The notes beneath the pieces are model-generated. The model saw only the letters and a program-made list of their open reading frames with translations, was not told where the DNA came from and made no database searches. This document shows positions 11,890 to 45,650 of a DNA stretch of 64,000 nucleotides, one piece after another; position 1 is the stretch's first letter, and every line of letters begins with the position of its first letter. Origin of the DNA: Rhizopus arrhizus. Its lineage: Eukaryota; Mucoromycota; Mucoromycetes; Mucorales; Rhizopodaceae. The DNA lies in assembly GCA_024220505.1 (NCBI GenBank), contig JAKZZE010000011.1, positions 1,240,001-1,304,000 on the forward strand. Direction: 5' to 3'. Position numbers and translations under genes: made by a program.

Positions 11890-12995
11890 GTTTCTGGTTT
11901 TAAGAAGTATGTGCTACTCTCTAGAATTATGCTTTTTGGGCTATGGCTATGATTGCAATGTAGATGAACACCCTTTTCGTAAGACCATTTCTTTTATGTC
12001 GAAATGCATTTGAATACCATTAACCAACAATTCAAAGAAACAGCATATTCATGCTTTGTGATTTGGCTAGGAGAATGAAAACAGGAAAACATTGTTGATA
12101 TTGACAGTATGCGAGGATGACTTACAAAGCTGAACATGCGCAAAAACCATTGCCCAGTTTTACGAAGCAGTTGATTTCAAAGGTTATTTGTTGGCATCAT
12201 GTCATCTTCTAGCATATTAGGAATTCTTACACGAATAAACTACCTGGAGCGGGTCATCTGTATATCAGAACTAGCTCAAAGACTAAAAGGTATATCCTTC
12301 TTAACACAAATATTGGTTAAAATACCATAGTCTATTCAACATTCTGCATTAATCTCTTGGATTAATTATATGTAATCTATCCTCTTCTTTACTTGGTAAT
12401 ATCCTTACAAAATCAACACAAATAAAAACGAATTCACAATTAATAAAATACACTTTTATTTAATTTCACAATGAACAAGGTAGAAGACAACCCAGTAAGC
12501 ACTTTTTTATACTTTAGAACCGATATAAACATCATTATGAATTTTTCTTTCTTTTTTCCTCATGCTGATCTTTGTGTTTACTTGAAAGAAATTGTCTAAT
12601 GATTCATTTAGATGTTGTTATTTTTAATTGCATTTACATATTGAATATTAAAACAGTATAAATTATCACCAAAAGCACTATCTTTAAGCTTAACATCAAA
12701 TATATCTCATTGAATATACTTTGATACGCTTCATTATACATGTATGCTTGCATCTTTCTCTTTTGCTTAAAAAAATATACTTATAAAGCTACGCAACTGT
12801 TAATTATATTAAAAGGCTCTTGGCAGTTTATACTCTAATAAATAGAGTAATAAATTGAAAATGTCGTTGAATATGGTCTTTTATAGATTGCACAACTATC
12901 ATTTATTCTTTTATCGAAATAGCATTTCTGTTTGATTCTTATCATGTACGTGATGTTACAATTTTCAGGTTCACCATACAGGACATAAACCATAG

Positions 12996-13190
12996 ATGTT
13001 GTTTAGCAGTCATTTGTATGGAATTTTAAATAGGCCTAGAAACAGTTTCCCTCCTTATAGGCATACACATACACCCATATCAGAAGCAGATTTTCAAAAG
13101 GTCTCCAAATCGGAAAAATCAGTTGCTAGATCATGGAATATGAAGCTGAGTATTATTTTAATTGTTAAACAAATGTCCCTCTCTTATTGA
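12996..13190 (+). CDS. HMG-box-like ORF, copy A
   Basis: A 64-aa ORF. Residues 12-46 run NRPRNSFPPYRHTHTPISE, then QKVSKSEKSVARSW. This follows the fungal MATA_HMG pattern: RPRN[A/S]F..YR at the start of helix 1, S-E-x-S in helix 2, and W near its end. The third helix is not in the frame, so this is either an exon of a larger gene (an AG lies just before the ATG) or a fragment. The inverted copy at 44355-44549 encodes the identical 64 residues, and the two nucleotide differences I count are both synonymous. Function is unknown. HMG proteins of this class bind DNA, some as mating-type regulators, but no mating-locus neighbours are present here. Confidence 0.45.
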   Translation: MLFSSHLYGILNRPRNSFPPYRHTHTPISEADFQKVSKSEKSVARSWNMKLSIILIVKQMSLSY

Positions 13191-13493
13191 TCTCAGCGAC
13201 TTTCTGTTAATTAATAAATCTGTCATTTCCTTTTCTTATGCTTAATTTCGATGTATATTATATTAATAAAATATTCATGCGATTTCTGCATGATCATACT
13301 TGCAATAGGGAGAGTTTGTTTTGTAAAGATACTGCATTCAGTATTTACATTCTCAATGTTTCAGACAAGCTCAGTCCAAATAACTGCAGAGTCTTCATAA
13401 TTATATTAATGTAAGAACACGATGGGTATATGTCTGTGACCATAATATGGATCTAAAATGTTTTAATCAAAAGTATCTTTTATTTAAACATCT

Positions 13494-13907
13494 TTAATCT
13501 TTAATAGCTGAGACTACAATTTCTACATTCATTTCCTTTATAGCAAGGGACGTAACGCCAATGGATGTCCATAGAGGAGCTCTCTCACCAATATACTTTT
13601 TGAACAAAGCAGCGATTATACTGAGGACACGATCAGAAGTTTCAGAAAAGTTAACATGATATGAAGTAACACTGTAAACATCTTTCCAGGAAGCACCTAC
13701 AGTACTCAATACATGCTCGACGTTTTTAAAAGCTTGTTCAATTTCTTCTTCCAATGATTTGTATTGAAACGAATATCCATTTGTCAAATCACCCCAACCG
13801 CCTTGACCTGAAATATCAATTCTATTTCCATTCTTCAAAACCTGATGGTAATTAAAATCTTCCAGTATCTTCTTGTAGCTATCAGGAGAATTAATAACTG
13901 GAGCCAT
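13494..13907 (-). CDS. RidA/YjgF/UK114 family protein, copy A
   Basis: A 137-aa single-exon gene of the Rid family (reactive intermediate/imine deaminases and relatives; trimeric, with active sites between subunits). Visible features are GQGGWGD near residue 35, the central helix EEEIEQAFKNVEHVL, VYSVTSYHVNF, and the C-terminal block GERAPLWTSIGVTSLA followed by EMNVEIVVSA. The Arg in GER is at the position of the family's substrate-binding Arg. The length is normal for the family. The near-identical inverted copy is at 43638-44051. This copy keeps the usual Pro in APLWT and Thr in GVTSLA, so it looks nearer the ancestral sequence. The exact substrate cannot be read. Confidence 0.88.
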   Translation of the reverse strand: MAPVINSPDSYKKILEDFNYHQVLKNGNRIDISGQGGWGDLTNGYSFQYKSLEEEIEQAFKNVEHVLSTVGASWKDVYSVTSYHVNFSETSDRVLSIIAALFKKYIGERAPLWTSIGVTSLAIKEMNVEIVVSAIKD

Positions 13908-14199
13908 CTCTGCTTTTTTTTGCGTGTATGTTTTTTTCTTTCAGATTAAAAAACAAGGCTTTCCTTTATAGTTGTTTTTTAGGTTCAGAAGCTTCGTCTT
14001 TTTATGTGTCATCAAAAGCCTTGGCTAAGCATATAGATTTAATGAGTCAAACAACACTTTTGATAAAACGATGGCTTTCAGATACAAATTTAACCAAGAT
14101 AGCTTACTCTCATATACCATTAAACAAGAAATATCTTTTAATACATATTCGATTTCTCACCCAAAAAAGAATTCTCATTTTGAATGAACAACTATAGTA

Positions 14200-15362
14200 A
14201 GATCAAACCTTTTGATTATTAATGAATTGATTATTAATCAAAGTTTATATCGCTAATTAAATAACTATGAATATAACTGATATAACTAGAAAATAACAAC
14301 TAAAAACTTCTAAGAAAAACCAAAAGCTTGGAAAAACGTCAATTCGATTTCAAAATTAAAGCACCGAAAGCCACATTGTACATAAACAGAACCTGTTTTT
14401 TCCTATCTTTTTTACGTAATTTTAAGTCTTATTATACAAGTCGTCTACAAATTTGTGAAGCTTAAGAATTTTTATAAGAAAATGATAAGCTATTAGTTTT
14501 AAGCTGCTAATACAGTTCTTTTTCCTTTGCATAAATCATACTCCGATGTAATGCCGTTCAAGATTGTCTGACACATTTTTAATCCACGTAGTTTTCTTGT
14601 GCAATGATATGCATCCAGATACCAGAAAAAACAACATAAATACTTTCAAATCATACGATACTTAGCAATAACTGTCGTAGGTTGTATTTCATCAATTAAA
14701 AAGCAAATACTAGAAAATCGCGTAAGATTTAGAAATAAAAAATACTTTTATTGAATATCAAAACTTGCTAGCCAAAAGATGAATGCCACATATTCTATAT
14801 ACTTTTCTATGACCTAAAATTATTCCAATACCGAGAAACTTTTGGCTTCATATACAGACATAAATAACAGATTGTTACGTTTATTAAGGCTTTGAATATC
14901 ATTGCAGTTTGCTCTTTTAATAGTGTGCAAAAAAACTAAAATACATAATTATAAGTAGTATTAACATTAAATGATTCAATAAACTCGTGCATAAGCCCAT
15001 GGTTTTTTCTTGTTTCAATTCTAGAGAATAAACAATATACTGGGTTTCAATGTAATGTCCTTTTGTCCGATAAGTTTCTATTTATGAATAAATTATTACG
15101 CGTCCCTGTGAATCCTTTATAGAAAGAAGATTGATAGAAGAATATTTAGCCGATTTAGTTCATTCTAATCTTATAAAAAACATATATACTTTAAGGTTAC
15201 ATAAAATTTCCTTCGATCTATTTTATGGTGCTACTAATCAGAAATAGACCTCAATGTATTGCCCTCTATTATTCACAAGCTATGCTCTTTTATTTTTATT
15301 TCCCAAGATAGATCCAGAAGATATTTGAATTGTCTATTAGTTAACAATCAATGCAAAAAATA
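14200..15362. other. Upstream part of duplication, no gene seen
   Basis: A+T-rich, with no supported gene. It is conserved with 42170-43340 only because of the duplication. Confidence 0.6.
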
Positions 15363-15960
15363 CACTTTTTTTTTTTTTTTTTTTTTTTACGAACGAAGAT
15401 TGAGAGAAGGAGGGTAATCCATATTTCACATTCTACTGGCTATCTAACCACTTTCAATGGTAAATTAAGCATCACAGATTAACAAAATGCCAGCAATTAT
15501 TGGGAATCATTGCTTTTAGTCATATTAAAATCAATATTATGCGACTAAAAAGACAATAGGTCAATAGAAGAAAAACAAATGCCGCGCTGAAAACAGTGCA
15601 TCATTCTGACTCGTTGCTACCTTATTGTTATGATGTCTTCACAGATACAGATAAACACCCGAAACCCTCTGCTAAACCAAAAAAACCTCTAAACAACCAA
15701 AACAGGTGAAAGGATTTAAATAACTTGTGAATTTAAGATGTTTGGCGAGTATATTTTAAAATCATATGGATTTCAGAACACATAGAAGGATTCTCTAAAG
15801 TATAGCACAAGACATAGCGTATGTATTCTTTAAATTAACCATTAGAGTCATAGTCTACTTGAACCATTAATTTACTATGAAAATGCACGGAGGAATTGGG
15901 CAACCCCTTCTCAGCCAACACAGACCAATAAAACATTTAGCTTCTTTAACCATGTATTTT
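15363..15960. other. Intergenic with T22 tract
   Basis: A T run at about 15367-15389 marks the right edge of the duplicated segment. No coding region is supported beyond it. Confidence 0.6.
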
Positions 15961-15969
15961 GTTTATGGA

Positions 15970-16570
15970 CTTACCAAATAAATACCAAAATATATTCTTA
16001 TCTTGAATGAATTCCAGTACTTTTCTTTTTTGAAGCTCCTTACTCAATTGATCGATCAATACTTCTACCTCAACCTCTAATATGCCACTAAACTTATTCA
16101 CAGCACCAAAACTCAAAATAACAGCAGCTATAGACTGCAAGTAAGATGAAGAAAGTTAAAAATAACAATTAGTATAACATCTCATAATCTGCTTTCCTAT
16201 TTTTTTTCTGTTGACGATCATTTTGGAACAAAAAAAAAAAAAACCTTTGAATAAAAAAAAGCATCTTTAGTTTATCGATCTTTAAATGACATAATCAATT
16301 TTCTTTTTATCTATTGTATTTAAAATAAATATTGATAGAGAGAAAGTAGTAAGTCCTTGAGGAGGTGTTACTGTTTGCTTTAACAAACATACCATAAGTC
16401 AAGAAAGGATCACTAATCGTGAGCCATACTTGGCTTCCCACGCAAATCTTCAACATAAAATACATTTCATTATCTGGCTTAAAGAAGCTTTTCATCAAAA
16501 TAAACACATTAAATATATTTTGCGAAAAAAGGGATTTCTTTAGCCTTTCTTTTCTTTTAAATCTTTCCAA
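15970..16570 (-). pseudogene. Cytochrome P450 N-terminal fragment
   Basis: Two minus-strand pieces match the front of Mucoralean P450s in order. The first (about 16570-16320) has FMLKICVGSQVWLTISDPFL then VKANSNTSSRTYYF, the segment before the B helix. The second (about 16131-15970) has SIAAVILSFGAVNKFSGILE then EVEVLIDQLSKEL, the C/D-helix region. The second piece starts after a clean acceptor TTACTTGCAG and ends at a consensus donor GGTAAGTCC, so it is a true exon remnant. The I helix, ExxR and haem-Cys regions are absent downstream, so the gene is truncated. Confidence 0.5.
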
Positions 16571-16604
16571 GACAAATAAAGAACAAGAAGAAAGAAAGCC
16601 CTAG

Positions 16605-17425
16605 CAGATACTAAAACAAAGACGTTTTCTCTGGTTCTACTGATATTGGTGTTGCTGAGATCGACTTTTTATATATAAAAGAGTTATACAGAAAACTCTG
16701 GAGGCAATTGCTAAAGTATTTATATTATTTTAAAAAATTGGCAAAACCAAGCGAAAGTTTGAAATGGTTGCGTAAACAAATAAGTAATTTTGAGCAACAA
16801 TTTATATTTATCTTTATTCATTATATACTGTTAGATCAATTCTTATTCGATAAAACCTTATTTAGAGTGAGGATATATCAGCATAAGGAATACTAATATT
16901 GTGCTTTCCTGTTTATCAAAAGATTCTAACTATATATTCCTTTGTGGCTTTTCATTTGGAGCTGGTATCGAGGGTTTGATTATATCAAGAGAATCACAAT
17001 GTCACCATTTGTTTGAATTAAAAAAACTTGCTACGAGGTAATAACGGTTAAGATAACACGAGAATATTGAGCGACCTAAACATTGAATTATATCAACATT
17101 GGGCGAAGCATCTTTAAGGACCTTTGTATATTGTAAGTTGATATGATGAGGATACATAGGCCACTAATCTATTATTTACATGTACTTTTTTCTCTATATA
17201 AGCAAATTAATTTGAAGAATAATGAAAAGCATGATATATCCCATGCATTAAATGCTTGTTCTATTGCAGCTTAGAACTTTTGTAACTCTTTAGATTATAC
17301 ATTCGTATTTGTCACTCAGAAACATGCACAATTCAATTAAGTGCAGCCATCAACAAAATGCAAGTTCCATAAAAGTTAAAAAATACATATTTTATTTACA
17401 ATAAGCAACAGTTCAATTATTGGGA
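16605..17425. other. Intergenic, no gene seen
   Basis: A+T-rich sequence. A short plus ORF at 16708-16896 has no recognisable features. Confidence 0.5.
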
Positions 17426-18189: not shown

Positions 18190-19320
18190 AGTTTCCATCT
18201 GCACTTTTACCCCTTGAAAAAAACCCTGTTGTTCTCTTATCTCCTTTTAGCAACAAACCAAATAGTAGAGTTAACAGGTTTAATATCAATTACAATCATC
18301 GTGGGTAAGCTTTTTACCATGAAAAGGTAGTTCATCTTCAGTTTGACTGCGAAGCTTTATTTTTGTTTTGACAGCAAAGCGTAGTCAATAAACAGGCTAA
18401 TTAATTTCTTTATGAAACCTATAGCGGGTTAAAAAACATGCCGCTAGTAGTAACCTTCCAGTAAAGAATATAATGATCGATTACAACCAAATCAAGGTAT
18501 CCGCTTTTCGCAAAGTGTTTGGTGGATCAATCAGTATATTATCGTGTCATTGGCATATCGAGAGAGCATAGAAAAAGTACATAAAATCAAGTATCAAAGT
18601 TGTTGATTCTATAATGGAGATTGTATAAGCATATGCTTGACCAAAACCATTTTAAATGCTATGATTATGTTTTTAGTTTTGATTCTTTTAAGGCTGAATT
18701 CCAGGAAAGAGCTTTTTGTTTTTTCAGTTGTTGCCATGAACAAAAGAGAGTTATGGGTTCATTCTTGGAGAAAAGATATACCATTATTATAAATGGCTAT
18801 ACTGAGTCATATCATAATCAGTTAAAGTCGCATTACTTTGGTCACAGTAGAAATACTCATGTATATAGGATAATCTGTATTATTCTACAAATTGTATTAT
18901 TGAATATCAACAAGATGATGTATGTATTCGATTTAGTGTAAAAAAGAATGCTTTTATCAAGAGAAGAAAGGGCAGATAGTATTGATGATGGTAAATCGAT
19001 TATATAGTCACTGAAAATGTAGATAATGTAAGTTGTTTGATTTTTTATGTGACATTTAAGTATTCCTTTGAAGTAACCTTTTAGATGTGCATCATTTTCT
19101 CAGTTATACTTACCAGAATAAACATCTCTGACTATTCACACCCTGATAAAGTTGGACTATACAAGCATATACTTTGTTTCAAGTGTAAATAGATTCGTTA
19201 TATTGCTAGAAAATTTCTCTGACAGTCTCAATGAATGAGGGATAGAAACCTTAAATGGAATATATATGATCATGCCATCTCACTCAGCCTGGCCCAAGTA
19301 GACAAAATTAAATAAATATT
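18190..19320 (+). pseudogene. MULE-type transposase relic, copy 2
   Basis: The homolog of 10017-11110. Plus-strand pieces include VFGGSISILSCHWHIERA, MLDQNHFKCYDYVFSFDSF, YTESYHNQLKSHYFGHSRN and TLIKLDYTSI. HWHIERAW and ESYHNQLK..YFG are typical of fungal MULE transposases with a SWIM finger. The 106-aa ORF at 18621-18941 is the longest surviving piece. Several stops and frameshifts make it non-functional. The right end carries CATGCCATCTCACTCAGCC, similar to 11064-11083 in copy 1. Confidence 0.65.
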
Positions 19321-19511
19321 TTGCGGTGGAAAAACTGTACGAAGCAAGTCTCTTGAAACAATCATGAAAACAAAGTGTTCATTGGACGATTGCCTTTTTA
19401 GTGCATGCGTCCAATAAGAAATAAGGGGAGGGGAAAGAAAAGTGAAGCATGATGTGTTGAGTTTATTTCTATTTTCTCTCTCTTTTTTTTTTTTTTTCTT
19501 ATATTAAGAAT
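19321..19511 (+). promoter_or_regulatory. Upstream region of VPS27
   Basis: Ends in a C/T-rich run (TTTTCTCTCTC then about 16 T) immediately before the ATG, as seen at many gene starts in this window. No specific factor site is identified. Confidence 0.4.
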
Positions 19512-21608
19512 ATGAGTTCTTTTTGGTGGGGGCAAAGCGCATTTGACGAATTAGTTGAAAAAGCTACTTCTGAACTATTACCAGCAGGTCAAGTAGACTT
19601 GGCACTTCACTTGGAAATAAGTGACCAAATTAGAAGTAAAAAGATTACTCCTAAAGAAGCCATTCGTTCATTCAAACAAAGACTATCTCATAAAAACCCA
19701 AATGTCGTTTTGGCTACTTTATCGGTAGAAAAATACCAAGCACAAAAAGATAATTTCTTATTATTTTTATAGCTAGTAGATACTTGTGTAAAAAATAGTG
19801 GAAGTGGATTCGTAAAAGAAGTGGCTACACGAGATTTTATGGAAGAAATAACGCATATTTTAAAGGTAAAAAAAAGAAACAACTAAAATAGTCACCTATT
19901 AAACAGCATAACATTTAGACGGGAAGTAATCAGGACGTGAAGAATAAAGTACTTTACTTGGTTCAAGTTTGGGGTATCGCAGCTAAAAATAATCTTTCAT
20001 TGGCTTATATCACTGGAATATACACTCTTTTGCAAGTCGAAGGTTACTCGTTTCCCCCTGTTACAGAGAAAATTGACTCTACTTTATTAGAAACTGCGAT
20101 AGTAAAGCTCATTATTTTCCTTACTAAACTTTATCTAATTGTATTTTGCTTAGGCGCCAGAATGGACTGATTCTGATGTTTGTGAGCGTTGCAGAACACC
20201 CTTTACTTTAACAAATAGAAAGGTAAATTGAGTGAAATTATAAAAGAATAAGCGCTAATAAACAATGAAAACAATAGCATCATTGCAGAAACTGTGGTGG
20301 CACGTTTTGTCAACAATGTTCATCTAAAAATGTTCCTTTACCTCATCTGGGTATTAATGATACGGTACGCGTATGTGATGGTTGCTATATTAAAGTGAAG
20401 TTAGCTAAGGTAGCTGATAAAGATACCATCTCCCAATTATTGGGTAATGCCGTCTCTACCTCAACTTCTTCTTCCTTAGTTCCAACATATGCACCCTCCA
20501 CAAGTCAAAAGACAGCAGATACGGCCAAGGATGAGGATCAGTTTGAATTAGATTTAAAAAAGGCAATTGAAATATCCTTGAAGGAAACTCAGCAAAAGTC
20601 TGTTGGTTATACTCCTGCTGCGGTAAAACCAAAAGAGAAAGAACAACCTCAAGAAGAAGATCAAGAAGATGCGGACCTTGCAGCAGCCATCGCAGCTTCA
20701 CTTGCGGATATGAAAGTATCAACTTTGCCAACATCGATTAAGACTCAAGATAAGAATGAGTTGTCATTGACAGACATGGAGAATATTCAATTGTTTTCAA
20801 CTTTAATGCAGCGTGTTCGATCTGCTGGTGGGGATGTCTCCGGTGACCAGCAGATTAACCAACTTTACACTCAAATTGGCTCTCTTCAGCCTAAATTAGT
20901 ACATACTTTGAATGAAACTTGCAGAAAGCATGGTAAGGAAATGAGATAGCAAACATAAAAGTCTTTTTTTAAAAAAATTCTTATATAGAAACATTTGTTC
21001 AGTTACATCATAAATTAAATGAAGCTGTTAAGGCTTATGATCGCTTACTGCAACAAAGATTATCAAGCACCAGTAGAAGTGGTAGTTATGATTATTCACA
21101 AAACTATCATCCTCCTGTCAATCAATATTATCCTCCACCAACGCCCTCTGTCACATCACAAACTGCTTATGCTTCCCCTCTTAATAATGCTGCTCCTACT
21201 GCTATCACTAGCGCTATTGCTACTGCTCCTGTTACTACTCCTACCGCAAGCGCCATATATCCCGAGTTAAACTCAATATCTACTGCACGACCAGTACAAT
21301 ATCCTACTGCCACTGCTACTACTCCAGCTGCAACCACAGCCATTCCACAGCCATCACACTATACTTCACCGCCTCCTAATTATCCCATGCAACCATACTA
21401 TCCACCTCCTACTCCTGCTCAAACAAAAATACAGTATCCTTCTATTCAGCAACCACATCAAACACAACCACAGCAATACAATCAACAAATAGAGCCTACT
21501 AGTTACTATAGCCAGCATGCTCAGCAGCAGCAGCAGCAACAGCAGCAACAGCAGCAACATCAACAACAACAGCCAACAGTTGATGAAGCACCACTTATTG
21601 AACTTTAA
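19512..21608 (+). CDS. VPS27: ESCRT-0 subunit Vps27/Hrs
   Basis: Endosomal sorting protein that binds PI3P, ubiquitinated cargo and clathrin to start multivesicular body formation. Six exons (19512-19724, 19773-19865, 19919-20101, 20154-20222, 20278-20932, 20989-21608) give 610 aa. A VHS domain covers about 1-140 (FDELVEKATSELL, VDTCVKNSG, STGSN-type segment). A FYVE finger follows, with WTDSDVCERC, the R(K)HHCRNCGG signature split by an intron, and RVCDGC. Two ubiquitin-interacting motifs follow, FELDLKKAIEISLKE and DADLAAAIAASLADM, then a helical segment. The tail is Pro/Gln-rich with a pure Q run from CAG/CAA repeats at about 21522-21580, ending in APLIEL, a clathrin-box-like terminus. It converges with PIG-X, leaving 61 bp. 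Confidence 0.95.
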
Positions 21609-21669: not shown

Positions 21670-22317
21670 TTAATCTGACTTCCTTCTCTTGCCTTTTGCC
21701 TCTGTTCTCTTTCTTTTTTTGACAGACAGCATGATTGAACGGGCGATCCAAACTGTACACCAGACAACCACACAAAAAGTACCCAAGGTCACCCACTGTC
21801 TATCCTGTACTCTACCAACCGGGACAAACAAGTTCAAGGGATCCTGCTGAGAAATATGAATGGGAATAAATCGTGGGTATTCTTCTGTCTTTGGTAGTAG
21901 TGGATGATCTAGAACAGGCCAGGGAGCTCTGCCACAGGTCCAGCCTGCATAAGGCGGTTGAATCGTCACGGATTGATAAATTTTATCGGATGCAGGTCGT
22001 TGGTATCGGTTATGTATTGGTAATTCGACAACAGGTGACGAGCTGGTTTGTCGAAGAAAGACAAGACTTCCTTGTGGTTCCTTGACCTTTTCTAGTGGTA
22101 ATTCGAGATCGTGTTCACCAAAGACTGTTGCTTTTCCAATGCTGGATTCCAGGTCTTGCAGTTGGTAAGGATCCACGAAAACACTCGCCGGTAGTTCATA
22201 CACAAGGTCAAGTTGACAGTCTTCACTGGGCTTTTCGTCTTTGTCAAATTCAATATATGTAATTATTTTTGGGTGAAAACTATTTGCTGATGTCAAGTTG
22301 GAGCGGATTTTAACCAT
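21670..22317 (-). CDS. PIG-X/Pbn1 family GPI-mannosyltransferase I subunit
   Basis: ER membrane protein that stabilises the first GPI mannosyltransferase (PIG-M/Gpi14). A single exon of 215 aa. The PIG-X domain shows VYELPASVFVDPYQLQDLE, LELPLEKV, then VELPIHNRYQRPAS and PPYAGWTCG, which is the family's P-x-H-x-RYQxP and C-terminal aromatic/Cys pattern. A hydrophobic segment at about residues 178-200 gives one C-terminal transmembrane helix, followed by a basic tail KKRKRTEAKGKRRK. The short length agrees with mammalian PIG-X rather than the larger yeast Pbn1. It shares a 121-bp divergent promoter with PHB1. Confidence 0.85.
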   Translation of the reverse strand: MVKIRSNLTSANSFHPKIITYIEFDKDEKPSEDCQLDLVYELPASVFVDPYQLQDLESSIGKATVFGEHDLELPLEKVKEPQGSLVFLRQTSSSPVVELPIHNRYQRPASDKIYQSVTIQPPYAGWTCGRAPWPVLDHPLLPKTEEYPRFIPIHISQQDPLNLFVPVGRVQDRQWVTLGTFCVVVWCTVWIARSIMLSVKKRKRTEAKGKRRKSD

Positions 22318-22438: not shown

Positions 22439-23382
22439 ATGTCTGCTATACTTGGAACTGTTGCTAAATGGGCTATTCCCGTTGGTCTTGCTGTTGGTGG
22501 TGCACAAGCTGCCATGTATGATGGTATGTGACTTAACAATCTCTCACTTGTCTAAAATAAAAATTCATAATCTACATGTTTTGCAGTCCAGGGTGGTTAT
22601 CGAGCTGTCATTTTTGATCGTATTCAAGGTGTCAAGCCTGTTGCTGTTGGAGAAGGCACTCATTTTTTAGTACCATGGCTTCAGCGTGCTGTCTTATTTG
22701 ACGTTCGTACTCGACCTCGAAACATTTCTACCACCACTGGTTCCAAAGACATGCAAATGGTCTCTTTGACACTTCGTGTCTTGCACCGTCCTGAAATTAA
22801 AAACTTGTCATCAATCTACCAAAACTTGGGTCTTGATTACGATGAAAGAGTATTACCTTCCATTGGTAATGAAGTTTTGAAATCGATCGTTGCACAGTTT
22901 GATGCTTCTGAATTAATCACCCAACGTGAAGTGGTCTCTGCAAAAATTCGTGAGGAATTATATAAACGTGCAAGAGATTTCAACTTGGCTTTGGAAGACG
23001 TTTCTATTGTAAGATACAATTTGAATTTTTATACATAAAAGAAACTAAAAAACTGCTTATTTAGACACACATGACCTTTGGTAGAGAATTTACTAATGCA
23101 GTTGAACAAAAACAAATTGCTCAACAAGAAGCTGAACGTGCTAAATTCATTGTCGAACGTGCAGAACAGGAAAAGCAAGCAGCTATTATTCGTGCCGAAG
23201 GTGACTCAGAGGCTGCTGAAATGATTTCTACAGCATTAGCAAACGCAGGCGATGGATTCATTGCTTTCCGTAGAATTGAAGCTAGTAAAGAAATTGCTCA
23301 AACACTTTCTAAAGCCTCCAATGTCACCTATTTGCCTAGCAACGGCAATGGTAACAATGTGCTTCTTGGTGTTAAAGCATAA
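22439..23382 (+). CDS. PHB1: Prohibitin-1
   Basis: Subunit of the mitochondrial inner-membrane prohibitin ring that scaffolds m-AAA protease and cristae. Three exons (22439-22523, 22587-23008, 23065-23382) give 274 aa. The N-terminal hydrophobic anchor [18 protein letters not shown] is followed by the SPFH/PHB domain with [33 protein letters not shown] and [18 protein letters not shown], then the coiled coil [20 protein letters not shown]. The sequence is PHB1-type rather than PHB2-type in length and in VLHRPE. Introns sit at conserved-looking domain edges. Confidence 0.96.
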
Positions 23383-23637: not shown

Positions 23638-24754
23638 ATGTTTCAATTATTTATTTTGTTAACTTCAATTGTCTGCATACAATCGCTTGGTGCACAAAAA
23701 ACTGAGCCAATTGTTTGTGATTGTGGATTTATTGATGAAAACAATCAAGTATGGAGTAACGTTTGGTATGCTGATTATAGCAAGTACAAGTCTATAGCGC
23801 ACAACGATCAATATTACCAAATCATGGACTATACTCTTCATGCAAAAGGCAAGAATTCATTTGATCGAGTCTTTTCTGCAAACAATATAAAGTTAAGTGC
23901 ACAAGGCATGTCACTGGCAGTTAAAAAAATTACCGATAACAAGTATACTTCTGCTTCCATTGGTACAAGAAGGTTGAAAAAACTATTTACTATTATACTC
24001 TTATTAAACAAGACACCTTAGGTCTGATTTCTTGTATGGTACGTTTCGTGCACGCATAAAGACAAGTGAAATACCTGGTACAGTAGCTGCCTTCTATTAT
24101 TATCGTAACGTGACAAGCGAAATCGATGTAGAGACATTGAGTCGATTGAGAAACCCTTGGCAAACATATTTTGCTATTCAACCACAAATTTATAATCAAG
24201 ATGGATCTGCTTCTCCTCTAACACATACAAAGCATGATTTGACATTTGATCCAACACAGGTAAATTGAAATTGATTTTTATTCTAATTTTCTAATACGTT
24301 ATAGGAATATCATGAATATCGATTTGATTGGACACCAGGACTAGTCAAGTTTTTCGTTGACGGTCTTCATGCTGGTGACTTGACAACAAATGTTCCTAAT
24401 ACTCCGGGCCGTATTATGATTAACCATTGGACTGATGGTAATCCTAACTTTAGTGGTGGTCCACCCGATAAAGATTCGGATATGATCATATCGCACTTGA
24501 ATATGTTCTTTAACTCTTCCGAATCATTGTCACCTCCTTCTTGTCAGCAAATGAAGACACCATGCAGTGTACAAGGTATGCCTTGAAATATTGTATTACA
24601 TAATTATCTCTATTCATCTGATCTCCATATAGATATTATGAGTAACAATCTTTTGCCTGGTATAGAAACATCTTTTGCTGACTCATTAATATACAACCGA
24701 TATAACTGTTTATCATGCCTTATCTCTTTTATTTTGTTAATCCTACTTTTATAA
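23638..24754 (+). CDS. Secreted GH16-like glycosidase/transglycosylase
   Basis: Four exons (23638-23972, 24022-24259, 24305-24575, 24633-24754) give 321 aa. A signal peptide covers about 1-19 (LFILLTSIVCIQSLGA). The concanavalin-like core includes SDFLYGTFRARIKTSEIPG and the catalytic motif SEIDVETL, the E-x-D-x-E nucleophile/acid-base arrangement of GH16, then YHEYRFDWTPGLVKFFVDG and GRIMINHWTDGNPNFSGG. The C-terminus is a hydrophobic segment ending LISFILLILLL, suggesting a GPI signal or membrane anchor. The likely role is cell-wall beta-glucan remodelling, with the exact substrate unknown. It lies between PHB1 and the MFS gene on the same strand. Confidence 0.85.
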
Positions 24755-29435: not shown

Positions 29436-29439
29436 CTTT

Positions 29440-30240: not shown

Positions 30241-30610
30241 AAAATCCTCTAGGACACTGACGGTAAGCAGGGCGCCCTGAATCTGATGGGCCAGCATTCG
30301 AAGTTTCCAAATTATTACCTAATCATGGATAACGCGCCTATCCATAAGGCCATGGCCATCGATGAGCTCATCATCATCCGCGGGTACCGATGTATCTACC
30401 TCCCTCAATACTCACCTCAGCTCAGCCCAATTGAGCAATTTTGGTCTGCTATGAAGAGCAAGGTCAGACGCCACGAATTGAAAAGCTAGGAGAAGCTGTC
30501 TGAACGCATCAATGAGGCATGTAATGATCTCCCCAAAGATCACCTCTATAATTTTATCAACTATTTCTCATCTCGCGTTGTCGAATGCCTCAATGAAGTG
30601 CCAATATAGC
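30241..30610 (+). pseudogene. Tc1/mariner transposase C-terminal (DDE_3) relic
   Basis: The plus strand reads YYLIMDNAPIHKA, RGYRCIYLPQYSPQLSPIEQ and FWSAMKSKVRRHEL, then a TAG and in the same frame ERINEACNDLPKDHLYNF. This is the second catalytic Asp (MDNAPIH) and third acidic residue (SPIEQFW) region of DDE_3 transposases. The N-terminal half is missing here, and an N-terminal half lies nearby on the opposite strand. Confidence 0.8.
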
Positions 30611-32859: not shown

Positions 32860-33381
32860 TGTAATTTTTGTTCCTTCAATGGCTTGTAAGAGTTAACGGT
32901 TTTGAAATAGAGTAAAGTTGATGAAGATGGATAAAAAAATAAGAGTTGGGTAGAGTATTGATATTAGGTTCGCTTGTAAGTGACCACCAGATCTTGTTAA
33001 GTAGATCAAACTTGTTTGTAATAAAATAACTTGATAAGAGTTTTAAGAGTGTTTACAATGAAGATAATTGACTTCAAGGGACTTGTCTTGCTTGTGTTTT
33101 AAGAGTGTTATACCAAAAGATTCAGGGATAAAGATACTTGATTTATTGGATAAAATATATTTAAGATAAGTATTAAGAGAAGTGAAGATAAGTGAGGTAA
33201 AATAAAAATAAAAACTTGTCTATTTTATAGACAAAGAGAAATAAAGTTTCATTTTGATATAAAGTTTGATTTCGATATAAGGTTTGATTTTGAAATAAAG
33301 TTCAAAAAAAGAATAAGGTTCAAAATTAAAAATTCACAAACCACAGCCATTGCTGGTGTTAATGTTGTAATCTTTGTTACA
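32860..33381 (+). repeat. LTR-like repeat, family 1 copy 1
   Basis: 522 bp with ends TGTAATTTTT and GTTACA. The flanks GCAT and ATAT are degenerate versions of the ACAT seen at the other copies. Its inverted partner is copy 2. Confidence 0.7.
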
Positions 33382-33476
33382 ATATATATAATTTTTTTTT
33401 TTTTTCTTTTTTCGACTTTTTTTCATTTTTTTAGCATTTCTTATTTTTGCGGCTATTACTATTTCTTTGACAATGG

Positions 33477-34016
33477 TTGTTAAAATAATGTAATAGTTCG
33501 CGATCACGGAGTTTGAGTAATTGAGATAGATAAAATATAAGCGCATTTACTTGGAATAAAGGTAATTCTTGACTAAGTAGAATTGATTTCGGTTCTTGTA
33601 AGAGTGACCACCAGATCTTGTTAAGCAGATCAGACTTGAATTTGATAGAGTAAAAAAATAAAAGTAAAAGAATAAAATAAAAAGGGATTACAATGAAGAT
33701 ATATTGGCTTCAAGGGACTTGTTCGTGCTCGATATGAATAATTCAGAGGTTTATATAAAAAGGGAACTTGATATTTATTTGATAAAATATATGAGGGAAG
33801 TTAAGTAAGTCAAAAGTAAAGTTGAAAAAGGGGAGTATTTTATATCTTTTCATGTTTTTGGTTTTTCTCACGTTTTCTATTTTTTTTGTTAACATTTGCT
33901 GTTGTAAAAGTAAATCAATAAAAGCTAATTTCTGGCTAAACCTCTTTTGGAAGTAGTGTAAGGATAACCGGACGTTGATGGCAACAAAGCTACAATAATT
34001 TAAGTTATTTTAACAA
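33477..34016. repeat. 540-bp element with 12-bp terminal inverted repeats
   Basis: Starts TTGTTAAAATAA and ends TTATTTTAACAA, a perfect 12-bp inverted pair that extends outward imperfectly (ATGG / CCAT). It contains one copy of the conserved core at about 33605. It lies in the spacer of the family 1 inverted pair. It could be a small DNA transposon or an LTR variant. Confidence 0.5.
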
Positions 34017-34091
34017 TCCATGTCGCAGTTGGTTTGCGTTTCATCCAAAAAGCGATCATTCTCACAGTACCATCCAAAATTTTATAGATGT

Positions 34092-34639
34092 TGTAACAAA
34101 GATTACAACATTAACACCAGCAATGGCTGCGGCTTGTGATTTTTTAATTTTGAACCTTATCCTTTTTTTGAACTTTATTTCAAAATCAAACTTTATATCG
34201 AAATCAAACCTTATATCGAAATCAAACCTTATATCAAAATGAAACTTTATTTTTCCTTGTCTATAAAATAGACAAGTTTTTATTTTTATTTTACTTCACT
34301 TCTCTTGGCTTATATATTTTAACTTTACTTATCTTAAATATATTTTATCCAATAAATCAAGTATCTTTATCCCTGAATCTTTTGGTATAACACTCTTAAA
34401 ACACAAGCAAGACAAGTCCCTTGAAGTCAATTATCTTCATTGTAAACACTCTTAAAACTCTTATCAAGTTATTTTATTACAAACAAGTTTGATCTACTTA
34501 ACAAGATCTGGTGGTCACTTACAAGCGAACCTAATATCAATACTCTACCCAACTCTTATTTTTTTATCCATCTTCATCAACTTTACTCTATTTCAAAACC
34601 GTTAACTCTTACAAGCCATTGAAGCAACAAAAAATTACA
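34092..34639 (-). repeat. LTR-like repeat, family 1 copy 2 (inverted)
   Basis: 548 bp, the reverse complement of family 1, with direct flanks ATGT at 34088-34091 and 34640-34643 (the complement of ACAT). With copy 1 it forms a large imperfect palindrome with a spacer of about 710 bp. Confidence 0.8.
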
Positions 34640-36157
34640 ATGTTGTGAGATTGGAGTTTGTAAGGTTTTTATAGTGTTAAATAGGTTTGATTTAAGAGAG
34701 TCTTGATATAAGATCAAAGGTTTAGGTAGGATTTGATTCCAAAAAGAGTAATGATTTGAATATAAGTTCGCTTGTAATAAGTGACCACCAGATCTTGTTA
34801 GGTAGATCAAACTGTTGTGAATAAAATAAAGTAAAAAGATAAAAAAAGGGATTACAATGAAGTGTATTTGCTTCAAGGGACTTCTTGTTCTTGATATTAG
34901 ATAAAATAAAAGAAAAACAAAAGAGATTTACTTTGTATGATATTTATTAAAATAATCAAAAAGTAAAGTAAATAAGTGAAGTAAAACAAAAGTTAAAAGT
35001 GAAGTAAGTAAGTAAGTAAGTTAAAAGTATAAGAAATATTGAAGTTATTTATATGTTTTTGGCTTTTCTGATTATATGCTGTTTTTGATGATTTTGTAGA
35101 TATTCTGTATTTTTTGTATTTTTCTGGATTTATCTGTATTCATACGTATTCATACGTATTTGTTTGTATTTTCCTGGATTTGAATTAGTTGGAGAGAGAA
35201 AAGTCAAATGCTGCTGTTATTTTATAGGGTTGGCTTGTAGGTTTGTGTTTTAATAGAGTAAAATTTGCTTGTAAAGCTTGATTGTAAGGTTAAGATTGCC
35301 TTGTAAGTTGTTGTTTAATATAGAATTTAAGCAGATGCTTGTTAAGTAGTGACCACCAGATCTTATATGTAAGATCAATACGATGTTTCTTGATAAAATA
35401 ATATAAAAAGTAAAGTAAAATAAGAGATCAGGAACTTTTATGAGTAAGTTAGCCTGCTTTATTGAGTTAAGTATATATAAAAATATAAAAGAACTTGACT
35501 AATTTTTCTTTCTTGACTGAATGGTTGGGGATATATATATAATAATAATAATTTTTTTTTTTTTTTTTTGACTTTTTTCATTTTTTTTTTTTTTGACCTT
35601 TTTCACTTTTTGACTTTTTTCATTTTTTGACTTTTTTCACTTTTCGACTTCTTTCACTTTTGCTTCGTGTTGTGAGATTGTTAGGCTTTCGGGTTTAAGT
35701 AGGTTTGATATAAGTTTTTGAGACAAAGTTTTGATAATTGAATAAGGTATCGGACAAAGTAATATCCAAAAAGAGTAGATAATTTGAGTTGTAAGTTCGC
35801 TTGAGTAGAGTGACCACCAGATCTTGTTAAGTAGATCAGTCTGAATTGAATAAAAGTAAAATAAAAAGATGAAAGATAAAAGATAAAATAAAAAAGAGAT
35901 TACAATGAAGTATATGATTCAAGGGATTATTATTTCTTCCTATTTATAAAATAAAAGAAGTATTTTGTTTCAAAGGAGATTTATTTGGATAAGATAACAT
36001 AATAATAATAATAATAATTCTTGATAAATTGTTGATATTTATATGTTTTTGGTTTTCTTGATTTTGTGATGTTTTTAGATTTTTGTGTTTTCCTTTGAAT
36101 TGTGAATTTAGTTGAGTTATTCAATTTCATTGAGTTTATCAAAAATATTGAGGACAT

Positions 36158-36757
36158 TGTAATTTTTTGTTGCTTCAATGGCTTGTAAGAGTTAACGGTT
36201 TTGAAATAAAGTAAAGTTGATGAAAATGGATAAAAAAAATAAGAGTTGGGTAGAGTATTGATATTAGGTTTGCTTGTAAGTGACCACCAGATCTTGTTAA
36301 GTAGATCAAACTTGTTTGTAATAAAGTAACTTGATAAGAGTATTAAAAGGTTTTACAATGAAGATAATTGGCTTCAAGGGACTTGTCTTGCTTGTGTTTT
36401 AAGAGTGTTATACCAAAAGATTCAGGGATAAAGATACTTGATTTATTGGATAAAATATATTTAAGATAAGTAAAGTTAAAATATATAAGTCAAGAGAAGT
36501 GAAGATAAGTCAAGAGTAAGTGAAGTAAAATAAAAATAAAAGCTTGTCTATTTTATAGACAAAAGAAAATAAAGTTTGATTTTTGAAGTAAGCTTTTCTT
36601 TTTGAAATAAGCTTTACTTTTTGAAATAAGGTTTGATTTTTGAAATAAGGTTTGATTTTTGAAATAAGCTTCAATTTTTGAAATAAAGTTCAAAAATTGA
36701 ACAAGGTTCAATATGGGGTACTCACTAGGCGCAATCGTCATAGCTTGCTTCGTCACA
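36158..36757 (+). repeat. LTR-like repeat, family 1 copy 3
   Basis: 600 bp. It starts TGTAATTTTTTG, has a divergent 3' third, and ends CTTCGTCACA. Flanks ACAT occur at 36154-36157 and 36758-36761. Confidence 0.75.
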
Positions 36758-36835
36758 ACATGAACTTAGTTCAGGTCCGAACTTTCTTCGTCAAGTGGTA
36801 CAGTTTGATTGAAAAAATTTCTATTTTCGTCACAG

Positions 36836-37275
36836 TGTAACCTCTTTACTGCCTACTGTAACTTGTTAGTACTTGGGATTTGGATTGTGTTAAAGTGTTG
36901 TAGATTTGTTTAATTTGAAGTTTGAAGCCTTGAATGACTTGAGTTTGTTTAACTTGATTGAACGTTTAACAGTTCTTTTGATATAGTAATTTGGTTTTAA
37001 GTAATGACCACCAGATCTTTATAGATCAATAAGGTTAGGAGTAAGATTGTTTAATAAAAGATAAAAATAAAAGGGATCTTTCTTGATTCGTGATAATTCA
37101 GGTATCAGATCAGAAAGAATAAGTAAAAATAAAAAGAAAAGAAAAGGTGTTTGTGACCCAATAAGAAACAATTGCTTTTAAGCGCAAGAAGATTTTGTTT
37201 ATTGAATGTCTGTTATTTGGTTAAAAATATTCATCTTATTTATATAAAAAAAGGCGTGGCTTATTGTTGGTTACA
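36836..37275 (+). repeat. LTR-like repeat with TGTAACC...GGTTACA ends
   Basis: 440 bp with perfect 7-bp inverted ends and a core copy at about 37007. No clear target-site duplication was found. TGTAACCTCTTTA at its start recurs at about 40665 inside another insertion. Confidence 0.5.
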
Positions 37276-37309
37276 ATCTATGTCGAACGACATCAATGTC
37301 GCTGGACAT

Positions 37310-37876
37310 TGTAATTTTTTTGTTGCTTCAATGGCTTGTAAGAGTTAACGGTTTTGAAATAGAGTAAAGTTGACGAAAGTGAATAAAAAAAATAAGAGTT
37401 GGGTAAAGTATTGGTATTAAATTCGTTTGTAAGTGACCACCAGATCTTGTTAAGTAGATCAAACTTGCTTGTAATAAGGTAACTTGATAAGAGTTTTAAG
37501 AATGTTTACAATGAAGATAATTGACTTCAAGGGACTTGTCTTGCTTGTATTTTAAGAGTATTATACCAAAAGATTCAGGGATAAAGATACTTGATTTATT
37601 GGATAAAATATATTTAAGATAAGTAAAGTTAAAATATATATGTCAAGAGAAGTGAAGTAAAATAAAAATAAAAACTTGTCTATTTTATAGACAAAGAAAA
37701 ATAAAGTTTCATTTTGATATAAGGTTTGATTTCGATATAAGGTTTGATTTCAATATAAGGTTTGATTTCGATATAAAGTTTGATTTTGAAATAAAGTTCA
37801 AAAAAAGAATAAGGTTCAAAATTAAAAATCACAAACCGCAGCCATTGCTGGTGTTTATGTTGTAATCTTCGTTACA
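37310..37876 (+). repeat. LTR-like repeat, family 1 copy 4
   Basis: 567 bp, TGTAATTTTT to GTTACA, flanked by ACAT at 37306-37309 and 37877-37880. The 3' end can fold as a hairpin: TGTTGTAA, six bases, TTACAACA (one mismatch-free pair in copy 2). Confidence 0.8.
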
Positions 37877-38102
37877 ACATCAAAATTTGTTCTTGTGATC
37901 ATCATTGTTCTCCGGATCCAAAACTTCATCATTTGTGCTACACTACTTTGGTCACACTGCAAAAGTTTGCTGCATTGTGTTACAATGTCTTCATCATTCT
38001 CGATACAGTGTACACAGCAACAAAAACATTCGGTTCAAATATTATCCGTCAACGCAGCGGAAAAATATTAAATCAGCGCTTCTACAAAGCACACTGAGAG
38101 AT

Positions 38103-38174
38103 TTCCCCAACGGGGAATCGAACCCCGGCCATGTCGGTGAAAGCGACAGATCCTAGCCACTGGACCATTGAGGA
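38103..38174 (-). tRNA. tRNA-Glu (anticodon TTC)
   Basis: The 72-nt minus-strand sequence folds as a standard cloverleaf. The acceptor is TCCTCAA with TTGGGGA (one U-G pair), the D arm is GTCCAGTGGCTAGGAT, the anticodon arm TGTCG-CTTTCAC-CGACA carries anticodon TTC, the T arm is CGGGG-TTCGATT-CCCCG, and the discriminator is A. No intron is present. Box A and B sequences are intact. The nearest downstream T run on the transcribed strand is about 35-40 nt away (complement of GGAAAAATATT near 38060), so termination may be late. An insertion begins 8 bp upstream of its 5' end. Confidence 0.92.
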
Positions 38175-38554: not shown

Positions 38555-38590
<36 letters not shown>

Positions 38591-41282: not shown

Positions 41283-42169
41283 AGCTTAGATATGCAACTT
41301 TTGTACGAAAAGAATAAAATGAAGAGAATTATTATATTGATAAGAAAAAAAAAATACATTACCGTCAATGTAAGAAAGTAACAGCATCGCCTTGGTAAAA
41401 AAAAAAAAAAAAAAAAAAAAAAAGCCTTCTTTTTTTAAAAGAAAATCAGAACCATTCTCAAAAAAAAAAAAAAAAAAAAAAAAATTAATGAAACAAATTA
41501 GTAAATCAAGCATAGATTGATCAATAATAAAACAGAAATTTATTATATAATTTGAAATTATTTTAATTAAATGAAAAGAGGTCTGCTTGTTACATAAGTC
41601 AATACAAAGCCAGTAAATAGTCTTTGATATAAAGATGGTCAGAAAATTTACATATTCCTTAGCTTGGGGATAGACTTTTTTTGAGCTGACTATTCAGTAA
41701 ACTTATACCAAACTAGTAGAAGATACACAGCCGTATAAACAAGTTATGTAGAGGCAATGTTCATTTGTCTTTGTTTAACAAATATACAAAACATACGAAG
41801 ATAGAAAAAATGGATAGATAATAGTAGATCGGTATATATCTCTGATTCATTTCTGTTATTTCTATTCTATTTTATTTCTAGTTTGATTTTTAAACCATGA
41901 AAATGAAGATGGGATAAAACTGGAGGATATATCACTGGGTACTTGTAAGTGCTAGCGGGGTCCCTTAACTATTAGAATCATTTCCTGATGGAAAAAACGG
42001 CAAGTTTATCGGTATTATTTACTTTAATCTTCCAAATTGTCCATTAACTCAACAGACAAGAAGCATGTTTTACATAAAACTTTTCAAACCTCTTTCATCA
42101 AACCTTCAAACCATAATAAGCAAATGCTTGATCCCAGAGTTTATTGGTATTATAATAATAAACAAATAA
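41283..42169. other. Gene-free region with two long A tracts
   Basis: A runs of about 26 each at 41398-41423 and 41460-41484. Nothing else is recognised. In copy A the corresponding gap (15.4-26.6 kb) holds five genes. Confidence 0.6.
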
Positions 42170-43637
42170 AAAAAAGTGTATCTTTTTTTGCGCTGATTGT
42201 TAACTAATAGACAATTCAAATATCTGCTGGATCTACCTTGGTAAATAAAAATAAAAACATAACGTGTGGATAATAGAGGTTAATGCTTTGCGATCTATCG
42301 TTGATCAGTAGGGCCACAAAAAGGGTCGAAAAATGTTTTATGTAAACCTCAACATATGTGTGCTTTCTATAGAATTAGATTGACTTAAATCGGCTAAATA
42401 TTCTTCTATCAACCTTCTTTCTATAAAGGATTCACAGGGACGCGTAATAATTTATTCATAAATAGAAACTTATCGGACAAAAGGACATTACATTAAAACC
42501 CAGTATATTGTTTATTCTCTAGAATTGAATCAAGAAAAAATCATGGGCTTATGCACGAGTTTATTGAATCATTTAGTATTAATACTACTTATAATTGTGT
42601 ATTTTAGTTTTTTTGCACACTATTAAAAGAGCAAACTGCAATGATATTCAAAGCCTTAATAAACGTAACAATCTGTTATTTATGTCTGTATATGAAGCCA
42701 AAAGTTTCTCGGTATTGGAATAATTTTAGATCATAGAAAAATATATAGAATATGTGGTATTCATCTTTTGGCCAGCAAGTTTTGATATTCAGTAAAAGTA
42801 TTTTTTATTTCTAAATCTTACGCGATTTTCTAGTATTTGCTTTTTAATTGATGAAATACAACCTACGACAGTTATTGCTAAGTATCGTATGATTTGAAAG
42901 TATTTATGTTGTTTTTTCTGGTATCTGGATGCATATCATTGCACAAGAAAACTACGTGGATTAAAAATGTGTCAGACAATCTTGAACGGCATTACATCGG
43001 AGTATGATTTATGCAAAGGAAAAAGAACTGTATTAGCAGCTTAAAACTAATAGCTTATCATTTTCTTATAAAAATTCTTAAGCTTCACAAATTTGTAGAC
43101 GACTTGTATAATAAGACTTAAAATTACGTAAAAAAGATAGGAAAAAACAGGTTCTGTTTATGTACAATGTGGATTTCGGTGCTTTAATTTTGAAATCGAA
43201 TTGACGTTTTTCCAAGCTTTTGGTTTTTCTTAGAAGTTTTTAGTTGTTATTTTCTAGTCATATCAGTTATATTCATAGTTATTTAATTAGCGATATAAAC
43301 TATGATTAATAATCAATTTATTAATAATCAAAAGGTTTGATCTTACTATAGTTGTTCATTCAAAATGAGAATTCTTTTTTGGGTGAGAAATCGAATATGT
43401 ATTAAAAGATATTTCTTGTTTAATGGTATATGAGAGTAAGCTATCTTGGTTAAATTTGTATCTGAAAGCCATCGTTTTATCAAAAGTGTTGTTTGACTCA
43501 TTAAATCTATACGCTTAGCCAAGGCTTTTGATGACACATAAAAAGACGAAGCTTCTGAACCTAAAAAACAACTATAAAAGAAAGCCTTGTTTTTTAATTT
43601 GAAAGAAAAAAACATACACGCAAAAAAAAAAGCAGAA

Positions 43638-44051
43638 ATGGCTCCAGTTATTAATTCTCCTGATAGCTACAAGAAGATACTGGAAGATTTTAATTACCAT
43701 CAGGTTTTGAAGAATGGAAATAGAATTGATATTTCAGGTCAAGGCGGTTGGGGTGATTTGACAAATGGATATTCGTTTCAATACAAATCATTGGAAGAAG
43801 AAATTGAACAAGCTTTTAAAAACGTCGAGCATGTATTGAGTACTGTAGGTGCTTCCTGGAAAGATGTTTATAGTGTTACTTCATATCATGCTAACTTTTC
43901 TGAAACTTCTGATCGTGTCCTCAGTATAATCGCTGCTTTGTTCAAAAAATATATTGGTGAGAGAGCTTCTCTATGGACATCCATTGGCGTTATGTCCCTT
44001 GCTATAAAGGAAATGAATGTAGAAATTGTAGTCTCAGCTATTAAAGATTAA
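43638..44051 (+). CDS. RidA/YjgF/UK114 family protein, copy B
   Basis: A 137-aa single-exon paralog of 13494-13907 with three amino-acid differences: Val to Ala in SYHANF, Pro to Ser in GERASLWT, and Thr to Met in GVMSLA. The last two lie in the conserved C-terminal block next to the substrate-binding Arg, where the family normally has Pro and Thr, so this copy may be relaxed or altered. The ATG at 43638 matches copy A; an upstream in-frame ATG at 43587 is in the leader and not shared as coding. The frame is intact. Confidence 0.85.
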   Translation: MAPVINSPDSYKKILEDFNYHQVLKNGNRIDISGQGGWGDLTNGYSFQYKSLEEEIEQAFKNVEHVLSTVGASWKDVYSVTSYHANFSETSDRVLSIIAALFKKYIGERASLWTSIGVMSLAIKEMNVEIVVSAIKD

Positions 44052-44354
44052 AGATGTTTAAATAAAAGATACTTTTGATCAAAACATTTTAGATCCATAT
44101 TATGGTCACAGACATATACCCATCGTGTTTTTACATTAATATAATTATGAAGACTCTGCAGTTATTTGGACTGAGCTTGTCTGAAACATTGAGAATATAA
44201 GTACCGAATGCAGTATATTTACAAAACATACTCTCCCTATTGCAAGTATGAATATGCAGAAATGGCATGAATATTTTATTAATATAATATACACTGAAAT
44301 TAAGCATGAGAAAAGGAAAGGTTAGATTTATTAATTAACAGAAAGTCGCTGAGA

Positions 44355-44549
44355 TCAATAAGAAAGAGACATTTGTTTAACAATTAAAATAATACTCAGC
44401 TTCATATTCCATGATCTAGCAACTGATTTTTCCGATTTGGAGACCTTTTGAAAATCTGCTTCTGATATGGGTGTATGTGTATGCCTATAAGGAGGGAAAC
44501 TGTTTCTAGGCCTATTTAAAATTCCATACAAATGACTGCTAAACAACAT
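44355..44549 (-). CDS. HMG-box-like ORF, copy B
   Basis: Encodes the same 64 residues as 12996-13190, including RPRNSFPPYR and SKSEKSVARSW. Only two silent differences are seen near the 3' end. The same caveats apply: the third HMG helix is missing from the frame and no flanking exon is proven. Confidence 0.45.
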   Translation of the reverse strand: MLFSSHLYGILNRPRNSFPPYRHTHTPISEADFQKVSKSEKSVARSWNMKLSIILIVKQMSLSY

Positions 44550-45650
44550 CTATGGTTTATGTCCTGTATGGTGAACCTGAAAATTGTAACATCACGTACA
44601 TGATAAGAAGCAAACAGAAATGCTATTTCGATAAAAGAATAAATGATAGTTGTGCAATCTATAAAAGACCATATTCAACGACATCTTCAATTTATTACTC
44701 TATTTATTAGAGTATAAACTGTCAAGAGTCTTTTAATATAATTAACAGTTGCATAGCTTTATAAGTATATTTTTCTAAGCAAAAGAGAAAGATGCAAGAA
44801 TACATGTATAATGAAGCGTATCAAAGTATATTCAATGAGATATATTTGATGTTAAGCTTAAAGATAGTGCTTTTGATGATAATTTATATTATTTCAATAC
44901 TCAATATGTACATACAATTAAAAATAACAACATCTAAATGAATCATTAGACAATTTCTTTCAAGTAAACACAAAGATCAGCATGAGGAAAAAAGAAAGAA
45001 AAATTCATAATGATGTTTATATCGGTTCTAAAGTATAAAAAAGTGCTTACTGGGTTGTCTTCTACCTTGTTCATTGTGAAATTAAATAAAAGTGTATTTT
45101 ATTAATTGTGAATTCGTTTTTATTTGTGTTGATTTTGTAAGGATATTACCAAGTAAAGAAGAGGATAGATTACATATAATTAATCCAAGAGATTAATGCA
45201 GAATGTTGAATAGACTATTGTATTTTAACCAATATTTGTGTTAAGAAGGATATACCTTTTAGTCCTTGAGCTAGTTCTGATATACTGATGACCCACTTCA
45301 GGTAGTTTATTCGTGTAAGGATTCCTAATATGCTAGAAGATGACATGATACCAACAAATAGCCTTTGAAATCAACTGCTTCATAAAACTGGACAATGTTT
45401 TTTGCGCGTGCTTAGCTCTGTAATTCATCCTCGCATACTGTCAATAGCAATAATATTTTCCTGTTCTCATTCTCCTAACCAAATCACAAAGCATGAATAT
45501 GCTGTTTCTTTAAATTACTGGTTAATGGTATTCAAATGTATTTCGACATAAAAGAAATGGTCTTACGAAAAGGATGTTCATCTACATTGCAATCATAGTC
45601 ACAGCCGAAGCAGTACAATTCTAGAGAGTAGTTCATGCTTCTCAAAGACA

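Follow-up and report, generated by a model that had tools for sequence, protein, structure and literature searches.

Can genes of Rhizopus arrhizus that lie between inverted repeats change their orientation, and do such repeats still exchange sequence with each other? The window analysed here, 64,000 nucleotides of contig JAKZZE010000011.1 (positions 1,240,001 to 1,304,000 of the forward strand, assembly GCA_024220505.1; C3 in coordinates outside the window), raises this question, since it contains two inverted arms of about 3.5 kb around a gene-bearing interval of 27 kb. A preliminary description, made from the sequence alone, had labelled these arms a RidA/HMG duplication and proposed that recombination between them would invert the whole block, so that strains or nuclei could carry both orientations. 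The closest precedent is the flip/flop region of Saccharomyces chromosome XIV, in which 24 kb lie between inverted, homogenised, gene-bearing repeats of ~4 kb, and for which both orientations and repeated re-inversion are described across strains and species (PMC9731477). As the most probable reading of the Rhizopus locus (roughly 70%), we propose an old local triplication of a block carrying a Rid-family gene of the tryptophan type (Trp-type, with Trp in place of the catalytic Arg of RidA), the arms of which are kept alike by gene conversion, while the ends of one arm and the Rid gene of another escape it.

Three arms in alternating orientation

Self-comparison by blastn of 129 kb around the window and a search for copies in all 41 contigs of the assembly (50.26 Mb) delimited the following segments, where A denotes the third copy, outside the window, B the first and C the second:

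C3:1210327–1213807, minus strand: core of arm A, spanning the entire query
11888–15387, plus strand: core of arm B, common to A, B and C; 95.75% identical to 45658–42154 (inverted) and ~95% to arm A
42154–45658, minus strand: arm C, inverted copy of the arm B core
11441–17026, plus strand in B, and C3:1208667–1214250, inverted in A: full A–B homology, 5604 aligned columns, 95.1%

B and C, aligned over 3507 columns and 26.8 kb apart, represent two long near-identical inverted repeats around a gene-bearing interval, as in a flip/flop system. Alignment of the two segments, a check set beforehand, left their borders close to the coordinates first given, and the inverted pair a few percent apart stands as described, but the number of copies has to be raised from two to three. 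The same contig carries arm A 26–31 kb before the left end of the window; it is oriented like C and opposite to B, resulting in the arrangement A minus, B plus, C minus inside ~77 kb, with overall pairwise identities of 93–96%; a fourth copy was not found in the whole assembly. The A–B homology covers 5.6 kb, whereas arm C has the 3.5-kb core only: the sequence right of the arm B core (15400–17026) was found in A and B only in the genome search, and homology of these two continues at 11360–11444 (63–89 columns, 81–89%) past an insert of ~360 bp in A. On its inner side, arm C ends at a tract rich in A and T, which faces a poly-T of 23 bases in arm B (15366–15388). Three arms make two invertible intervals, of ~37–38 kb (A–B) and 27 kb (B–C), while A and C are a direct-repeat pair, at which crossing-over would delete or duplicate, not invert.

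Repeats of such size are classic trouble spots of genome assembly, and one copy could have been duplicated or misplaced in this way. However, the copies differ by 4–7%, have different extents and unique flanks and are found on a 1.8-Mb contig, which makes an artefact hardly credible. We likewise consider it very improbable that the segment of 3.5–5.6 kb is the captured cargo of a DNA transposon, an idea suggested by pieces of a dispersed repeat on both sides of arm B:

10050–11112, plus strand: dispersed repeat to the left of arm B, perhaps a transposon relic; 70–83% identical to 18192–19319
18192–19319, plus strand: second piece, right of arm B, in the same direction

Sequence from this left flank (9900–11890) has 131 candidate places in the genome, 40 of which were scored. 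Nevertheless, within the 129-kb region this repeat was seen next to B only and at neither A nor C, no terminal inverted repeats were detected at the borders of A, B or C at E <= 0.01 (a lone 19-base inverted match, 14690–14708 with 17961–17943, is positioned away from the borders), and the block was found just three times in the genome, all within 77 kb.

A mosaic of sites along the arms

In the three-way alignment, the copy that stands apart changes along the arms: A equals C against B at 12000–12200, B equals C against A at 12400–12600 and 13500–14700, and A equals B against C at 13200–13400 and from 14800. Overall, 211 sites are private to one copy and one more differs in all three; the private-site labels form 58 runs vs. 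132 expected, and none of 10,000 shuffles was equally low. Permutation of whole bins of 20–50 bases, which keeps short mutation clusters together, yielded P <= 0.0025 in each of the 15 settings, irrespective of whether the Rid gene was included. Likewise, the runs test for 12000–14800 gave P 0.0047 after merging same-label sites within 10 bp, and it was also significant for 14000–15195, a range including the decaying end of C. From this mosaic, we infer gene conversion between the arms.

Divergent ends and a divergent Rid gene

The ends of arm C differ from B by 15–22% (15/101 and 37/168; together 52/269), vs. 2.4% (50/2081) in the B–C core (Fisher 3e-24), and the outer A–B ends differ by 8–10% (9/99, 27/350 and 12/126). 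A further divergent stretch coincides with the Rid-family gene, which has three copies in the genome, as the one recognised gene of each arm:

13494–13907, minus strand: Rid-family gene of arm B, 137 amino acids, intact frame; PF01042 with 68.9 bits vs. a cut-off of 27.3
43638–44051, plus strand: Rid-family gene of arm C with an intact frame; identical to arm B at 134 of 137 residues
13497–14200, minus strand: divergent island (Rid coding and upstream sequence); A differs from B and C by 9–12%, adjoining non-coding sequence by 2–4%

Between A and B, the Rid gene shows 18 differences at 88 synonymous sites (20.5%; dS 0.24, dN 0.085, NG86), which is about eightfold the divergence of the non-coding arm sites (100/3761, 2.7%; Fisher 6e-11). 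The A–B differences within the gene fall into codons 6–47 and 88–116, with one at codon 64 and none past 116, and this pattern is a mosaic at the codon level, too. The block structure of private sites, the divergence at the ends of C and the contrast between Rid gene and non-coding sequence together indicate that the arms appear to recombine, as flipping would require. The premise of the preliminary description, that the arms recombine, gains support from the mosaic tracts, the end decay and the island that stands out from otherwise homogenised sequence, subject to the caveats given below.

At the protein level, A and B differ at 21 of 137 residues. In a tree of Rid proteins, A pairs with the Rhizopus entry P0003 (133/137 residues; support 99/82) and B with the Rhizopus entry P0002 (124/137; support 92/77). 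Since the A-like and the B-like type each have their own Rhizopus partner, the A/B split is probably older than this strain.

A recent triplication, with young copies a few percent apart and a Rid gene in A that evolves fast under relaxed or positive selection, would agree with the overall identity of 93–96% and with the 21 exchanged residues. Fast protein evolution, however, leaves silent divergence unraised, which is at odds with a dS of 0.24 next to a dN of 0.085 and with silent Rid sites diverging about eight times as much as non-coding ones. Considering also the 15–22% divergence at the ends of C and the A-like and B-like proteins held by other Rhizopus entries, we regard a recent origin as unlikely. 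Alternatively, the Rid island of A could have been imported into a younger duplicate from a diverged relative or allele, either by introgression or by conversion from an unseen copy. The divergent stretch is indeed short and bounded (~13500–14200), and P0003, which derives from R. arrhizus entries, is nearly identical to the A protein. Import nevertheless leaves both the divergence at the two ends of C and the A/B/C mosaic left of the gene unexplained and appears quite unlikely to us.

An old triplication with ongoing conversion would proceed as follows. A block with one Trp-type Rid gene would have been duplicated locally, long ago, into three alternating copies within ~77 kb. These copies would repair or recombine with each other, whereby gene conversion could hold most non-coding arm DNA at ~96–98%, while conversion would not reach the margins of homology in C or the Rid gene in A, which would show their greater age (15–24% divergence). 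Where homology ends, conversion may remain incomplete, and in the Rid gene of A it may be blocked or disfavoured by selection; A-type and B/C-type Rid proteins would both be retained by selection. As conversion requires arm pairing, some pairings should resolve as crossovers, and occasional B–C or A–B events could flip the 27-kb or the 37–38-kb interval, respectively, whereas A–C crossovers would cause deletions or duplications. An even more far-reaching option, which we put forward as tentative and rather doubtful, would be a three-armed flip/flop locus in an early-diverging fungus, with two adjacent invertible intervals polymorphic among strains or among the nuclei of one mycelium and with selection shielding two distinct Trp-type Rid proteins from homogenisation.

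Several points weigh against an old triplication homogenised by conversion. After merging same-label sites within 20 bp, the runs test was not significant (P 0.33 for 12000–14800, 0.13 without the Rid gene and 0.23 for 12000–13470), and 14000–14800 alone was not significant in any of four merging settings; merging shortens same-label runs only and is hence biased against the signal, but the caveat still holds. Homogenisation of the kind known from the flip/flop system is therefore supported by the run and bin tests, is not significant under the severest merging and concerns one genome, from which all signs of conversion come. Furthermore, divergence at the outer A–B ends stays below that of the Rid gene and of both ends of C, and the regions of both Fisher tests were picked after viewing the identity profile. 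Finally, P0002 is mixed: at the 21 positions distinguishing A from B, it matches B 11 times, A 6 times and neither 4 times, and its pairing with B is modest and was not recovered in a smaller tree.

The Rid-family gene and the putative HMG box

The “RidA” label of the preliminary description holds at the level of the family only. While the arm gene passes the PF01042 gathering score (68.9 and 63.0 bits vs. 27.3), it scores well below the threshold of the NCBIfam model TIGR00004 for Rid family detoxifying hydrolases (31.0 and 29.2 bits vs. 106.25), and Trp113 of its protein aligns with the catalytic Arg of the relatives 2dyy, 2b33 and 6l8p. Of the 41 aligned rows, 39 have Trp in this column; the exceptions are the odd entry P0023 and the short entry P0029 (95 amino acids). 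Judged by these alignments, the arm gene is a Rid-family gene lacking the catalytic Arg of RidA, the role of which is treated in PMC4433059, and is not a canonical RidA. It shares this exchange with Rid4 and the Rid7/YjgH-like proteins, for which Trp is described at this position (PMC4433059), and the best solved relative by sequence is YjgH (1pf5). Unlike Rid1–7, described as mostly limited to bacteria (PMC4433059), the arm Rid is fungal. Its closest named proteins are from R. delemar (90%) and R. arrhizus (84%), and two further PF01042 places above the cut-off in this genome, on contigs C4 and C26, have frames (PARSAV..ARLPKDV) of the arginine form. Trp-type Rid proteins were also observed in Mucoromycota and Basidiobolus entries, and the named bacterial relatives are mostly actinobacterial; an old transfer of this type would be possible.

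The HMG gene proposed for the arms found no such support. In a six-frame search of the genome for HMG_box, all 47 candidates were scored, and the 37 matches obtained lie outside the arms. The label probably stems from the following frame:

12996–13190, with counterparts in A and C: 64-codon frame (RPRNSF..YR), open in all three copies, one residue altered in A

This frame has no Pfam match up to E = 10 (within HMMER's filters) and no homologue in a protein search. A hidden Markov model (HMM) of 19 HMG boxes of this genome, which matched 11 of 11 held-out HMG loci (half-sets: 20/20 and 21/21), gave E = 0.11 in B and C (domain 7.4 bits) and a domain E = 0.79 in A, i.e., a faint, not significant resemblance to the first part of an HMG box. 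Among 520 arm frames, the top one was a different frame, in A (E = 0.079); 12996–13190 ranked among the best with the complete set and with one of the half-sets (E 0.11–0.13 in B and in C), which the second half-set did not reproduce. A decayed HMG remnant or an HMG box split over short exons may be present in the arms. The idea of a sex locus was dropped, as the sole HMG_box match on the contig is near 658 kb, ~0.55 Mb from the nearest copy.

The B–C interval and its surroundings

The gene content given in the preliminary description for the interval was borne out by Pfam matches of single frames, the tRNA and self-comparison:

15388–42153: B–C interval, 26.8 kb
19461–21608: VPS27 frames; FYVE, UIM and Vps27 GAT-like on one exon-sized frame (Pfam)
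21670–22317, minus strand: PIG-X frames; Pfam match on one frame
22571–23382: prohibitin (PHB1) frames; Pfam Band 7/prohibitin on one frame
23638–24586: GH16 frames; Pfam match on one frame
24902–26489: MFS frames; Pfam match on one frame
31677–37894: repeat mosaic of a dispersed family, with internal repeats
38103–38174, minus strand: tRNA-Glu (TTC)

The repeat-mosaic family has at least 270 matches in the genome (40 of 711 candidates scored); several of its units are 97–100% identical at many genome places, and the mosaic stops ~200 bp from the tRNA-Glu. The interval also contains a DDE_3 transposase fragment (30253–30489, Pfam).

Sister copies of VPS27 and prohibitin are adjacent on contig C17 (363–366 kb), and two genes right of arm C have sister copies on C24 (342–347 kb). 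These sister genes presumably stem from the whole-genome duplication reported for Rhizopus (PMC2699053). As the sisters of the interval and of the right flank are located on different contigs, sister synteny breaks close to arm C. C17 also has a chitin-deacetylase-like match (40% identity), which was not used, since we take this family to be large.

Left of arm B, 1608–2660 forms a second, unrelated inverted duplication with C3:1313038–1314107 (1.07 kb, 91.5%), which overlaps a WD40-gene piece and has its partner 9–10 kb right of the window; the region hence has more than one local inverted duplication. A non-LTR retrotransposon (4445–9867) has two long open frames, the second with endonuclease and reverse transcriptase domains and a zf-RVT just below the cut-off, and the ~100 bases directly after it (9900–10007) are 96–100% identical at seven further places among the matches listed. 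At the other end of the window, a Sen1-like gene (60313–63954) is 98% identical to an R. arrhizus entry over 94% of the query, and right of the window large coding-like arrays of GDDHGYDH-type short-period repeats are found in inverted arrangement (C3:1310455–1311578 and 1307628–1308600).

Discussion

Like the Saccharomyces flip/flop region, the Rhizopus locus combines inverted repeats (3.5 kb, 27 kb apart) with a homogenisation-like mosaic and one recognised gene in each repeat, but it has three arms with 93–96% identity, one gene copy has escaped homogenisation, and it is known from one assembly, whereas both orientations are described for Saccharomyces (PMC9731477). The orientation of the latter is reported to have stayed unchanged over ~53,800 mitoses and 950 meioses (PMC9731477); therefore, a single isolate would mostly show one orientation even if its locus can flip. 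A second parallel are the paralogs GOT1p1 and GOT1p2 of the copepod Tigriopus, which show high-divergence regions despite apparently ongoing gene conversion (PMC3728101). In contrast to that system, which is described from several populations, the arms studied here are inverted, come from a single genome and have an island of coding plus upstream DNA.

A published report of this locus or of a Rhizopus flip/flop region was not found among the titles and beginnings of abstracts listed for the open-licence literature. While this kind of system is already known, new here are a third arm, a mosaic resembling that of conversion and a Trp-type Rid gene that escapes homogenisation. Inverted repeats kept alike by gene conversion are a substrate of recurrent inversions, with Saccharomyces as the well-studied fungal case (PMC9731477). 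That one gene copy escapes homogenisation suggests two Rid proteins with putatively distinct functions, of a Rid type for which mostly bacterial members are described. A Rhizopus-like mycelium contains many nuclei, and a comparable locus in Rhizopus would let one ask whether the nuclei of one mycelium differ in orientation.

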